Program-made: the position numbers and the translations under genes
Origin: Verrucomicrobiota bacterium
GTDB taxonomy: Bacteria; Verrucomicrobiota; Verrucomicrobiia; Opitutales; Seribacteraceae
Assembly (NCBI GenBank): GCA_028343845.1
Contig: JAOLZO010000005.1
Span: forward strand, 1 to 64,000
DNA length: 64,000 nt
Direction of reading: 5' to 3'
Notes under the pieces: generated by a model
Seen by the model: the letters and a program-made list of their open reading frames with translations, nothing else
Databases searched by the model: none
Told to the model about the DNA's origin: nothing
In this document: positions 9,757 through 14,916 of the stretch, piece by piece
Layout: each line of letters starts with the position of its first letter
Position numbering within the stretch: the stretch's first letter is position 1

Positions 9757-11565
9757 CTAGGACTGGTTCCTTTCTGCATAAATCGTAACCTTTGCTTGTT
9801 CCCCGGAAATAAGTTGCTTGGACCTCTTGATTGCCTTGGCCGTCGAAAGGGTCGGATTGCTTGCAGTGTGCGGAAATACGTTTTTACGATTAATGCGGGA
9901 AAGCACACCTGAATCCCGCAAGATTTTCAAAGCATCCCTGCGAACTTCACAAAGCAGGACGTGACAGTTCTTCTCCTTCAAATAATCCAGCAACTCTTCC
10001 AGCGCCAAAACGGAAGTCGCGTCCAAGTGGTGGGCGTGAAGAAGCTTAAGGACGAGGACCCGCAGGTTTTCGTCTTCACCAACTCTTCTGATCTGCTCGT
10101 AAAAGAGATCTGCCGCGGCAAAGAAAAGCTCGCCCTCGACATGCACGATGGAAACTTCTGGCTCGGCCCGTTTGGTTTTCTCGGAAAACTCCGTCAACTC
10201 ACCGTCTTCATTGTAGCCATGTTCGACCATTTCCGGTTCCGCGACTTTTTTCAGGAACAGAAGGATGGAGGTGATGACTCCCACAAAAATTGCCATTTGC
10301 AGGGAAAGCAACAAGCCCACGCCGAGGGTGACGGCAAAAGTTATCGCATCGGATCGGGTCGCCTTGGAAACCGTTTTGATCTGCCGAGCTTTGACGAGTG
10401 AGGCTCCGATGAAAATAACAAGGGTGGCCAGCGCGGGCAGGGGGACGTAGGCCACCAGATCTCCGAGTAAAAAGTATCCGGCCAGAATCAGTATGCCGGC
10501 AAGTAGGTTTGAAACACCGGTCTTGGCCCCTGATTGAACATTCAGGGATGACCTGGTGAGCGACCCCGATGCGGGCATGCCGGAAAGGACTGAGCAACCA
10601 ATGTTGCTGATGCCTATCGAAAAAGTTTCCTGGTTGCTGTCAATGCGCGCCCCGGCTCTGGCTGCCAATGACTTCCCAATCGACAAACCCTCAAGCAAAC
10701 ACAAAAGAGAAACAGCGGAGGCCGACCATAGGATGGTTTCCCAATGGGAACCAAAGGCTTGGATGGAAGGGGTAACCAGAAAGGAACGAGTTGATGCAAA
10801 GGAATCCAAATAAGCGACTTTCAAATGGAAGTGCTCGAAGAGAATGCCTGCCAGAGATGCAATAATCAGGGTTAAGGCAACGTTCGGCAATGCCCGTAAC
10901 CTCAACTGCAAGATTAGGAATACAATTGCGGTGATTAAACCGAGCCAAATTGACGGCGCAGAGGCGTGGCCGAGATTTTCAACTGTTTGGGATAGTATTC
11001 CCCAGAAAGTTGAGGGGGCTCCATCCCCTTTCCCGGTTAGACCAAGCACGTGCTTGGATTGATTGACAATGATAAGAAATGCGGCGGCAGTTACGTAGGC
11101 AGTTATGACAGTGCGCGAGACAAACTGAACCATAAAGGATATCCTCAAAAAAGATGCAAAGAGAAGGAGGATACCCGAGCAGGCCAAAATCCAGGGAAGC
11201 AACATCAGGGCGGATTCATTGCCCATGCCGTTTGCCTTGATCATTCCCAAACCGGCAAAGACCCCGAAAAGCAAGACCGCGGTCGCGTTTGTGGGACCAA
11301 GTGTAATGAAGCGGCCTTTCCCAAAAAGGCCTCCGAGTAAGGCGGCAAAAGCAGAACCAAGCAACCCATACTGTATTGGCAACCCGGCTACGAGCGCATA
11401 GGCCATGCCTTGGGGAATGGCTAAAAGGGCAACGTTGAGGGAAGCACGGCAATCCCCTGACCAGTTTGCGCGGTTGTACCCCTTGAGGACGTGATAAACC
11501 GAAAAAGCCGGACAGAAGAAAGAACCGAGACTGAAGGTGCCTTTCACTTTCGAATTTATGTTCAT
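9757..11565 (-). CDS. SulP-family anion transporter with C-terminal STAS domain
   Basis: Inner-membrane SLC26/SulP permease, a family that carries sulfate, bicarbonate or other anions, usually with proton or sodium coupling. The membrane domain starts with the sulfate-transporter motif VALLAIPQGMAYALVAGLP and the QYGLLGSAFAALLGGLFG segment, continues with GPTNATAV and about 10-12 helices, and carries MPASGSLTRSSLN. The last 120 or so residues are a cytoplasmic STAS domain with HLDATSVLALEEL. I placed the start at ATG 11565 because the 53 codons upstream (from 11724) do not look like SulP sequence. A CO2/bicarbonate or sulfate role cannot be decided. Confidence 0.88.
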   Translation of the reverse strand: MNINSKVKGTFSLGSFFCPAFSVYHVLKGYNRANWSGDCRASLNVALLAIPQGMAYALVAGLPIQYGLLGSAFAALLGGLFGKGRFITLGPTNATAVLLFGVFAGLGMIKANGMGNESALMLLPWILACSGILLLFASFLRISFMVQFVSRTVITAYVTAAAFLIIVNQSKHVLGLTGKGDGAPSTFWGILSQTVENLGHASAPSIWLGLITAIVFLILQLRLRALPNVALTLIIASLAGILFEHFHLKVAYLDSFASTRSFLVTPSIQAFGSHWETILWSASAVSLLCLLEGLSIGKSLAARAGARIDSNQETFSIGISNIGCSVLSGMPASGSLTRSSLNVQSGAKTGVSNLLAGILILAGYFLLGDLVAYVPLPALATLVIFIGASLVKARQIKTVSKATRSDAITFAVTLGVGLLLSLQMAIFVGVITSILLFLKKVAEPEMVEHGYNEDGELTEFSEKTKRAEPEVSIVHVEGELFFAAADLFYEQIRRVGEDENLRVLVLKLLHAHHLDATSVLALEELLDYLKEKNCHVLLCEVRRDALKILRDSGVLSRINRKNVFPHTASNPTLSTAKAIKRSKQLISGEQAKVTIYAERNQS

Positions 11566-12401
11566 TGAAGTAGTTTGTAAAACTAAGGGAGACTGAAAAT
11601 TCTCCAAGTAGATTCGCAAAAAACCTGATTTTATTCTAAAAAATGATCTAAATCGGACGATAGTATAGTTGTCGCAGGGACGCGACCATCTGTATTTACA
11701 TAAGTTAGGATGCAAGGAGTGCATCGATAGCTGCCCGATGGAAGTGATTGAATCGCCCCCTGCCTAACCAATTGAATCAAGGCGCAAATTCGTCGATCTT
11801 TTGGTTTTCTTGTATCTCGCAATCATTCTGTTTGCTGATGTCTTGTGGGTGATTCCTTTGCGGTGAACTATATTTACCCAATGGGTCAGTACCCATTCCC
11901 CACTTTTTATTAACGATATAATACTCGATACCATGTAAACCCAAATTTTAAAGCGCAATGGTCAGGAAGGACCTTTGCCCATTGATCCTGGATCAAAACA
12001 ACGACACGGAAGTCATTATCTGTACGGAATATTTTCTGTACCCTCACTAGTTGGTGAACTTTGACGACCATTCGTTGCACTGTTTGCAAAGCTTTGCTTA
12101 TCAGTGGTGAGTTCCGGGAAACTATAACCATATTAATATATAAACCATACAACCCATTCGTTATGACTGAAGTCGATGCAGACTCTCGTGCATCCGTCCG
12201 GTTACGCCTGCAGAAAGGTGAAATCGGATGTAGTCATGCGTACATACGGAAACCAGTGCGGGGAAAGCCCCGGTAATGAACTGAAAAAAAGAATAACACA
12301 ATTACTTTTATGTAAATATATTGCACGCACAATAGTCTAATAATGTGCATGCATATATATGGATTCTGCACACTTTAACAAACCACAAGAAAGAAGAAAT
12401 C
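11566..12401. other. Long AT-rich non-coding region upstream of the flagellin-lectin gene
   Basis: This 836-base gap separates the SulP start from the start of the flagellin-lectin gene. Small open frames here on both strands have no recognisable protein character. The right half is clearly AT-rich. It contains TGTGCA at 12344-12349 and its inverted copy TGCACA at 12367-12372, separated by 17 bases, just upstream of the start codon. It also holds pairing elements described in the next entry. A purine-rich AAGAAAGAAG sequence precedes ATG 12402 and can serve as ribosome binding site. I see no clear sigma-70, sigma-28 or sigma-54 promoter. Confidence 0.6.
12191..12283 (+). promoter_or_regulatory. 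Possible structured 5' leader of the flagellin-lectin gene
   Basis: Two potential helices lie in tandem. CATCCG (12191-12196) can pair with CGGATG (12225-12230) across a 28-base loop. CGGGG (12259-12263) can pair with CCCCG (12268-12272) around AAAG, enclosed by CAGT (12254-12257) and ACTG (12280-12283). A run of A follows. The element is about 120 bases before the start codon. It matches no riboswitch class I can name. It could be an RNA regulator or chance pairing. Confidence 0.3.
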
Positions 12402-13676
12402 ATGATCGCTTCAGATACAAATTACTTTGCATCCAAGGTTGCTCGCGAAATGGAGAGCATCATGCGTAGCAAGCAAAAACACATGAGCAAGCTCTCTTCC
12501 GGCAAAAGAGTTGAGAAATCAACCGATGACGCCGGTGCCTTGGGAGCGAAACTCAAGCAGGCCAGTGCTATTCGCCGAATGAGAGGTGTAAACCAGAACC
12601 TGCAAAATGCGCTTTCTTATACCCAGATGCAGGAATCCGCACTAAAGACTGTCGATAAAATATATGGCCGAATGGCCCAACTGGCCACCATGGCCCTTGA
12701 CGTTATCAAGTCAGATTCCGACCGGGAGAATTATGACAAGGAATTTCAAGAACTCAGGCAACAAGTTCTCGAAATCGATCTACAGGAATTTAACGGAAAC
12801 GCCCTTTTTAGGAATACAAAGTATGGAATTATAATTACCCCAACTAGACTTTCCTGGTTAGATTCACAGCAACATGCAGCTGATGCCAGTGTATCTGATT
12901 CGGAATACACCCATTACATGGCCACAATAACTTCTCAGGAAGAACAAGATGAAATTGACCGCCAGCTTCAGGGTGCAGGAACGGGAATTGCTTTATGGCT
13001 TGGTGGAAGTGATGCGAATACCGAAGGAGACTGGCGATGGGTTGAAGGACCCGAGGGTGACGAAAACGGAGGTTTAGGCCGACAATTCTGGCAAGGTCAA
13101 GGGGTAGGCAGCGGTGGCTCAGCCATCAATGGCTCTTATGAAAATTGGAATGATCCGAATGAGCCAAATGATTCAGGGTCATCTGAAGATGCCTTGCAAA
13201 TATTGTCTACCGACGGAGAATGGAACGATTTAAGAAATTCTGCTCCAGGAACACCTACAGGCTATTTGAGGGAGAGCGATCCGAATAACTTGAAGGTCAA
13301 TGATGCGGCGGACGGAGGCGAATTCGAACTCCAGAAAATCAGCTTTAAGAGGTTTTTGGAGAGCACGACCATCGACTTGACGACGATGGCGAATTCGAAG
13401 GATGCCCTCGAACGGGTTATGGAGGCGCAGGAAGACGTGATTGATAAAATTGCCCTGGCCGGATCGAACTCCGCCCGATTAACCTCGGAAATTAACGCTC
13501 TCGACGTTGATTTTGTCCATAAGGAAACCTCGCTCGGTCGGATCGAAGACGTCGATATGGCATTGACGGCAAGCCGGTTGGCCAAGGCAGAGATAAAGAT
13601 GCAGGCCGCCGCATCCATATTTGCCCAGGCAAATGCCCTTTTCAGCCAAAGAAACTACGTTGACGAGCTATTGTAG
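12402..13676 (+). CDS. Flagellin with an inserted C-type lectin-like domain
   Basis: 424-residue flagellin-like filament protein. The N-terminal D0/D1 region spans about residues 1-140: LSSGKRVEKSTDDAGALG at 31-48, a glutamine-rich helix, then FNGNALF at 130-136. The C-terminal D1/D0 region (about 310-424) has IEDVDMALTASRLAKAEI and ends in QANALFSQRNYVDELL, as flagellins do. Between them, about 145-292, lies a C-type lectin-like fold: HYMATITSQEEQDEI, LWLGGSD, WRWVEGPEG, YENWNDPNEPND and GEWNDL. The EPN (254-256) and WND (274-276) motifs are those that bind calcium and mannose-type sugars in classical lectins. The whole protein has no cysteine, so the lectin disulfides are absent, fitting type III export. 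Start ATG 12402 has a purine-rich ribosome site; no other flagellar gene is nearby. Confidence 0.85.
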   Translation: MIASDTNYFASKVAREMESIMRSKQKHMSKLSSGKRVEKSTDDAGALGAKLKQASAIRRMRGVNQNLQNALSYTQMQESALKTVDKIYGRMAQLATMALDVIKSDSDRENYDKEFQELRQQVLEIDLQEFNGNALFRNTKYGIIITPTRLSWLDSQQHAADASVSDSEYTHYMATITSQEEQDEIDRQLQGAGTGIALWLGGSDANTEGDWRWVEGPEGDENGGLGRQFWQGQGVGSGGSAINGSYENWNDPNEPNDSGSSEDALQILSTDGEWNDLRNSAPGTPTGYLRESDPNNLKVNDAADGGEFELQKISFKRFLESTTIDLTTMANSKDALERVMEAQEDVIDKIALAGSNSARLTSEINALDVDFVHKETSLGRIEDVDMALTASRLAKAEIKMQAAASIFAQANALFSQRNYVDELL

Positions 13677-13713: not shown

Positions 13714-14916
13714 TCAGAATTCCAATTCCTGGACCTTTATTTCTTCGAATCGGAAATTCTCCTTGGCCTTTTTCCAATCGTCAAATTGTTCGCGGTAGTT
13801 CTCCTTGAGCGAAGATAGTTCTGCGTTGAGCCTTTTGAGTTTTTCGTATCCGGGATTTGAAAGAACGGCGTCCTCCTCTTTTGCCCTTAACTCCGCAAGT
13901 TTTCGTTCAAGACCTTTTTTTCTATCCAGAGTTTCTTTGGCAACCGATTTAATCCAGGCGATTGCATTTTTGATTTCCTTGTCAATGTTTTGCTTGGTCG
14001 AGTCGAGGTTTCTTAAAACCTCTTTTTTAACGAATGAATCAGGGTTGTCATTTGCCAGCATCGTTTCCAATTGAGCAGACATCCGAACGAGTTCGGGAAG
14101 GGACTTGTACTTGGCAATTTTTTCTACCTCCAATAGTGCCATGGGGTTTGGGTTGCTTTTGCTTAATGATTCAATTTGACGGAGGGGTTTGACCATGGAC
14201 GAAAGCTCTTTATTGGTCTGATCCAGCTCAGCCTGTAACGCAATTTCCTCAACATTGGCGCTATTCCCGTCTCTAGAGCTTTTTTGAATCTTTTCTACGA
14301 GAAGATTGATTTTCTGATCCAAATCAGCCATTTTTTTAAGATGTTTTTGGAATTTGGCAATAAGCGGATCGTCCATGGTTTCTCTGGAAATCGCTTCTTT
14401 GTAAGTTTGGGCGACAGCTTTTGCCAATAATCGGGCGGTTTTTATGGAATGCCCGCGGCAAACTAAAAAAAGACCGTTTGCATTAGGAGCGTCACGGATT
14501 GAAAAAAGAGCCCTCATAATTTGGCTTTCGTTTTGCTTAAAGGCACTACTCTGAAAAGGACTTAGAATCATTTTCTTAACCGTTGGGCTCTTGCTAATAA
14601 GAGCCATGACCTTTTCAAGAAAAAAGGGGCTCAGCAGCGCATCGGAATGCAGTGACGTATGGCGTCGTCCGCCATTTTCCACAAGCAACAAAGTTCGTAG
14701 CTCGGCCCAGCTATCGGATGAAAGGTTTTCTTGCGTTTCGAGCTCGGGGACACCCGGTGAACGAGAGGGCTTCGAGGGTTCCTTGACTGGCATGCTGACT
14801 AGGGGTTGATCAGCAAGAGGCGCCAAGCTCTCTTCCTTTATCTCTTCATAGTACACCCCGTAATAGAAAAGAGAAAGACTAAGTATGATCAGCAAAACGC
14901 TTTGCCACGGTTGCAT
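13714..14916 (-). CDS. Membrane-anchored coiled-coil protein of unknown function
   Basis: 400 residues with one N-terminal membrane segment (about 6-25) and then a long, charged, mostly helical exported part. A middle segment around residues 140-175 (LVCRGHSIKTARLLAKAVAQ) resembles the periplasmic part of polysaccharide chain-length regulators (Wzz/GumC). Residues 185-395 are predicted coiled coil by heptad-like Leu/Lys/Glu spacing. Unlike Wzz it shows no second membrane segment at the C-terminus and no kinase domain, so I do not assign that function. It converges with the flagellin-lectin gene and is divergent from the ECF sigma gene. Confidence 0.7.
   Translation of the reverse strand: MQPWQSVLLIILSLSLFYYGVYYEEIKEESLAPLADQPLVSMPVKEPSKPSRSPGVPELETQENLSSDSWAELRTLLLVENGGRRHTSLHSDALLSPFFLEKVMALISKSPTVKKMILSPFQSSAFKQNESQIMRALFSIRDAPNANGLFLVCRGHSIKTARLLAKAVAQTYKEAISRETMDDPLIAKFQKHLKKMADLDQKINLLVEKIQKSSRDGNSANVEEIALQAELDQTNKELSSMVKPLRQIESLSKSNPNPMALLEVEKIAKYKSLPELVRMSAQLETMLANDNPDSFVKKEVLRNLDSTKQNIDKEIKNAIAWIKSVAKETLDRKKGLERKLAELRAKEEDAVLSNPGYEKLKRLNAELSSLKENYREQFDDWKKAKENFRFEEIKVQELEF

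Follow-up and report, generated by a model that had tools for sequence, protein, structure and literature searches.

A flagellin with an inserted cysteine-free C-type lectin domain in Opitutales: a candidate glycan-binding subunit of the flagellar filament

The window, by which is meant the whole 64,000-nucleotide stretch of Opitutales DNA analysed here, carries an intact open reading frame on its forward strand that begins with an ATG at 12402, ends with a stop codon at 13674-13676 and encodes a protein of 424 amino acids with no cysteine. Neighbouring genes lie on both sides, and no Pfam family was found above cut-off in the product of the one at 13714-14916; a reading of that product as a Wzz protein receives no support from Pfam. 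The features of the locus are the following.

9757-11724, minus strand: SulP-type sulfate permease (Sulfate_transp and STAS domains), a neighbour conserved by synteny
11960-12014, plus strand: two small hairpins with GGA loops (11960-11973 and 12003-12014), weak candidates, degenerate counterparts of the CsrA-site-like hairpins of relatives
12402-13676, plus strand: lectin flagellin gene, 424 amino acids (open reading frame, Pfam, relatives, Foldseek)
12402-12821, plus strand: N-terminal D0/D1 flagellin half, residues 1-140 (Flagellin_N at 6-139; helical in the AlphaFold2 model)
12822-13301, plus strand: inserted C-type lectin domain, residues about 141-300 (Lectin_C at 172-277; fold match to CEL-I and DC-SIGN)
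13161-13169, plus strand: EPN codons, residues 254-256, putative Ca-2 and mannose-type sugar motif (15 of 15 relatives; aligned with the EPN of DC-SIGNR)
13185-13187, plus strand: codon of E262, putative third Ca-2 ligand (invariant in 15 of 15 relatives)
13221-13229, plus strand: WND codons, residues 274-276, with N275 and D276 as the putative last two Ca-2 ligands (invariant in 15 of 15 relatives)
13344-13673, plus strand: C-terminal D1/D0 flagellin half, residues 315-424 (Flagellin_C at 338-413)
13714-14916, minus strand: protein of unknown function, the conserved neighbour on the other side (synteny)

Three Pfam domains are recognised in the 424-residue protein, all above their curated cut-offs. 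These are Flagellin_N at residues 6-139 (E=1.5e-18; 67.6 bits against a cut-off of 26.6), Lectin_C (PF00059) at residues 172-277 (E=1.4e-6; 29.5 bits against 22.6) and Flagellin_C at residues 338-413 (E=1.7e-10; 41.5 bits against 23). A sequence search of the PDB likewise retrieves flagellins with the ends of the protein and DC-SIGN with its middle. A sequence-only reading of this DNA had proposed a flagellin complete at both ends with a lectin-like domain between them, and had suggested a profile search of each part; the search bears it out, with LSSGKRVEKSTDDAGALG running from residue 31, IEDVDMALTASRLAKAE from residue 381, and EPN and WND at 254-256 and 274-276 as that reading had placed them. 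It had also proposed that the lectin replaces the D2/D3 region. The lectin domain stands and the replacement does not, because many flagellins of the same genus, of about 300-345 amino acids, have no such domain; the lectin is more aptly described as inserted between the two D1 halves.

An AlphaFold2 model of the protein, built with 15 homologues, has a mean pLDDT of 78.5, with values mostly of 72-91 in the insert except for one weaker loop. Compared with the PDB by Foldseek, the model matches flagellins (8jmv at 5.2e-10), while the insert matches CEL-I (9.8e-7, target TM 0.68) and DC-SIGN (4.2e-6, TM 0.71). Profile and predicted structure thus agree on a C-type lectin fold for the middle segment, and the non-lectin fold that the earlier reading had held out as its undoing did not appear. 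All five canonical Ca-2 ligands of mannose-type lectins are found (E254, N256, E262, N275 and D276), and in the profile of the insert the EPN, the next E and the WND line up with those of DC-SIGNR and CEL-I. The early identification of EPN and WND as classical calcium- and mannose-type motifs therefore appears sound, the site being aligned with that of DC-SIGNR and conserved in relatives. With mannose-binding protein A, DC-SIGN/DC-SIGNR and CEL-I the insert shares the fold, the WLG..D/EG.W.W core and the Ca-2 site composed of EPN, E and WND; unlike these mannose-type lectins, it has neither cysteines nor disulfides and lies within a flagellin, and its sugar binding is a prediction. A canonical animal CRD has two conserved disulfides. 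With no cysteine in the protein, the insert has neither and is classed as a cysteine-less bacterial type; cysteine is likewise missing from 26 of the 32 other bacterial lectin domains in the comparison. The presumed sugar class (mannose, fucose or GlcNAc) is read from EPN by analogy to the lectins of animals and may not hold in detail.

The central region of flagellins is usually extremely diverse (PMC7018530). In the present alignment 40 of the lectin domain's 147 columns are invariant, whereas the N-terminal core has 14 invariant columns among 135 and the C-terminal core 8 among 113, a count open to some bias through the gathering of relatives by whole-protein similarity; by this measure conservation is highest in the lectin domain, the reverse of the usual flagellin pattern. 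The five ligands are invariant in all 15 aligned relatives, and the Ca-2 motif is retained in every one of 20 full-length Opitutales lectin flagellins (19 EPN, one QPD). The QPD, a galactose-type motif, belongs to the second tandem copy in one genome (G014; L008:2807-4105, minus strand). A flagellin of 856 amino acids (L054:441-3008) has its lectin domain split by a long insert and has lost the EPN site. The site might nevertheless serve a structural outer domain, in which the lectin fold is a scaffold, calcium gives stability and packing stiffens or shapes the filament with no external sugar involved; sea water is rich in calcium, which counts in favour of this, and the fold can gain stability from Ca-2 residues. 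In some flagella, outer domains are also known to play structural roles (PMC8931119; PMC10256154). Packing alone, however, fails to explain why this particular loop is invariant in two phyla, and the retention of the EPN sugar-contact motif together with an alternative sugar motif, QPD, in one paralogue is the pattern expected of ligand choice, so that a purely structural role seems unlikely.

In a tree of the D0/D1 regions the lectin proteins group with E. coli FliC and with many ordinary flagellins of the genus, and both E. coli FlgL and the FlgL of the same genome fall outside (splits of 0.81-0.92). That genome (2.5 Mb, about 64% complete) has on contig C64 a flagellar cluster in the order FlhB, FlhA, FlhF, FliA-type sigma factor, MotA/B, FlgF, FlgG, FlgA, FlgH, FlgI, FlgJ, FlgN, FlgK, FlgL, FliW and CsrA, named by Pfam for FlhA (FHIPEP match, 9.6e-240), FlgK, FliW and CsrA, by Flagellin_N for FlgL and by inspection for the remainder. 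The FlgL encoded there, beside flgK, is a separate protein of 1486 amino acids. NCBIfam models do not separate the two identities, the lectin protein scoring 73.5 bits with the FlgL model TIGR02550 and 76.2 bits with the best flagellin model, both under their cut-offs. The nearness of these scores is what a hook-associated or junction protein of the FlgL kind, as opposed to a filament subunit, has in its favour; against it stand the separate FlgL adjoining FlgK and the grouping of the lectin proteins with FliC and multi-copy flagellins, on which grounds the FlgL identity was rejected and is considered very improbable. The ends group, as the sequence-only reading had held, with flagellins, and by tree and gene content the lectin protein is classed as a FliC-type flagellin. 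Both this FlgL (G000:C64) and the FlgK of the genome (about 1140 amino acids, L081:13032-16451) are greatly enlarged and have repeated segments that resemble carbohydrate-binding module 5/12, with a weak Pfam match for FlgL; the same weak match is seen in a 975-amino-acid flagellin of a genus-mate (G008).

Just past flgL, fliW and csrA lie one gene of MptE-like (Maf-like) type and others read as nonulosonate synthesis genes of the pseudaminate type. These favour the idea that the lectin recognises the cell's own surface, binding O-glycans of its flagellin, its capsule or its exopolysaccharide and thereby bundling flagella or tethering cells to one another. EPN sites of the mannose type are not known to bind nonulosonic acid, however, and the lectin gene lies outside the glycosylation cluster; self-recognition is accordingly judged quite unlikely.

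The homologues of like domain order that the earlier reading had called for exist: the family has at least 18 genomes that encode a full-length lectin flagellin, of which 12 belong to one genus and six are all the genomes sampled from two other genera. The named records among the carriers are Opitutales or Opitutia metagenome-assembled genomes and single cells, which we take, from the record names and general knowledge, to be of marine origin. Beyond the family, 388 genomes sampled across the phylum yielded no lectin flagellin. Where the contig is long enough, the usual slot is in most cases flanked by the sulfate permease on one side and, on the other, by the gene without assigned function, which is itself followed by a gene for an ECF sigma factor; one of the 12 carriers in the first genus has its gene in a different slot, and the lectin flagellin sometimes belongs to a tandem group of two or three flagellins. 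Recurrence of the same domain order and slot in many independent assemblies led to the rejection of a chance or artefactual fusion or a misassembly. Empty sites, in which both neighbours are present with no flagellin between them, occur in eight genus-mates and in two genomes of another genus (in one further genome the contig ends too soon). Judged by gene order, the lectin flagellin is vertically inherited in a fixed slot, a conserved and family-wide one at which the gene is cleanly lost or gained. Because several near-complete genus-mates do without it, the gene is dispensable. The flagellin repertoire of genus-mates is unusually large: a single genome can have as many as 34 flagellin-family matches, in long tandem arrays and of very different sizes, from about 300 to 1274 amino acids (G004, G007, G008; L091, L092). 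For this reason the lectin flagellin may be a minor subunit, and the thousands of displayed lectin sites envisaged by the sequence-only reading are, like sugar binding itself, hypothetical.

Flagellins with Lectin_C were also found in four records of Alphaproteobacteria, and in two of these proteins tested the C-terminal parts match alphaproteobacterial-type flagellin models (1e-44). Within one alphaproteobacterial family 8 of 104 genomes have a lectin flagellin, interrupted in one (G059) by an in-frame stop. The Ca-2 ligands are retained in all seven aligned alphaproteobacterial proteins; an AlphaFold2 model of one member has low confidence in the lectin part and was left out of the evidence. 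In a tree of the lectin domains the Opitutales inserts form one clade (0.90), whose nearest relatives (0.93) are cysteine-poor lectin domains from the same genus, carried by large secreted-type proteins (L061, L063, L136); these proteins differ from the lectin flagellins in being frames of about 880 to 2270 amino acids without flagellin ends. The alphaproteobacterial inserts form a separate clade (0.999), and because of this separation two separate domain captures are likely, to judge from the tree, with transfer of a domain as a less likely alternative. A further alphaproteobacterial flagellin (L163:466-1992) has a concanavalin A-like domain (Laminin_G_3, 1e-14) between its flagellin ends and is possibly another lectin-like flagellin. 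Patchy presence, the degenerate L054 and the stop codon in G059 are what a functionless relic or drifting fusion would leave, but the site is conserved strongly and specifically throughout the family, and the design recurs in a second phylum, which makes such a relic extremely improbable.

Among 17 lectin flagellins, 7 have leader hairpins with the CsrA-consensus loop (ACAAGGATGT); the corresponding counts are 12 among 67 other flagellins and one among 136 other genes, an enrichment (p=4e-7 for the lectin set) calculated over related sequences that are not independent. One or two such hairpins are present in the 5' leaders of the lectin flagellins in L104, L105 and L107-L110. The counterparts in the window are degenerate and lie about 390-440 bases upstream of the start codon. 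Translation of flagellin is controlled by FliW-CsrA in B. subtilis (PMC8306008), and in agreement with that case the hairpins suggest a similar control of the relatives' lectin flagellins. Upstream of the lectin flagellins no convincing sigma-28 promoter match is shared, and no known RNA family reaches its gathering score in the window.

Functional domains in the central region of flagellin are best illustrated by flagellinolysin, which occurs in several phyla and whose flagellin ends build the filament (PMC5595980; PMC7643111). This precedent, which the sequence-only reading had invoked for the plausibility of the insertion, holds: both proteins have a domain inserted centrally, a zinc protease in flagellinolysin and a lectin of the Ca2+/sugar type here. 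The lectin flagellin is not itself a flagellinolysin, as neither Peptidase_M9 (by Pfam) nor HExxH was found in its 424 residues. Flagellinolysin-type Peptidase_M9 frames are present in 16 of 42 genomes of the family, nearly all of them of flagellin size; the one frame scanned has both flagellin ends. Among nine related flagellins checked, not all of which matched Peptidase_M9, HExxH is intact in eight. Six flagellinolysin-type proteins (L086:527-2251, L087, L088, L089, L099 and L028) all have HExxH, with Peptidase_M9 matched by Pfam in L086. An M9 frame accompanies the lectin flagellin in 11 of 18 genomes and is present in 5 of 24 without it (p=0.011), an association that is suggestive and is confounded by kinship and incomplete genomes. 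A 2017 survey counted 61 flagellin-inserted domains, and its Table 1 lists von Willebrand A, sialidase and others, to which the same general principle of an inserted domain applies (PMC5595980). No description of a lectin flagellin was found in the literature, and the text and top-10 table of that survey, the supplement's list of 61 aside, name none. As far as these parts of the literature extend, domain-bearing flagellins are thus already known and the lectin version is a new variant among them.

Flagellar adhesion to glycans has often been reported and its molecular basis is debated. The gene at 12402-13676 probably encodes a filament flagellin with a cysteine-free, calcium-binding C-type lectin domain at its surface, through which the filament would adhere to glycans in a Ca2+-dependent manner, a proposal drawn from homology and modelling. 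The subunit would leave the cell unfolded by way of the flagellar export channel, fold outside and co-assemble with other flagellins, perhaps as a minor component, so that weak Ca2+-dependent sites for sugars of the mannose, fucose or GlcNAc type would stand in arrays on the filament surface. Through multivalent and reversible binding at such arrays the flagellum could keep hold of particles of polysaccharide, of algal mucilage or of other cells, and the protease-bearing flagellins of relatives would extend the same repertoire. More tentatively, and with slightly less than even confidence, lectin-array filaments may be an undescribed adhesive class of flagellin that evolved at least twice, in Opitutales and in Alphaproteobacteria, and that in Opitutales forms part of a modular repertoire with protease flagellins, making the flagellum an organelle for gripping and digesting glycans on marine particles. 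If true, this would add a second functional class of domain-bearing flagellins, with binding beside proteolysis, and the presence of a recognisable sugar site on the filament subunit itself makes the proposal directly testable. The occurrence of these proteins in Opitutales and some Alphaproteobacteria suggests that flagella can in some cases act as fibres that grip sugar in addition to propelling the cell, which would bear on the means by which free-living marine Opitutales locate polysaccharide and keep hold of it.
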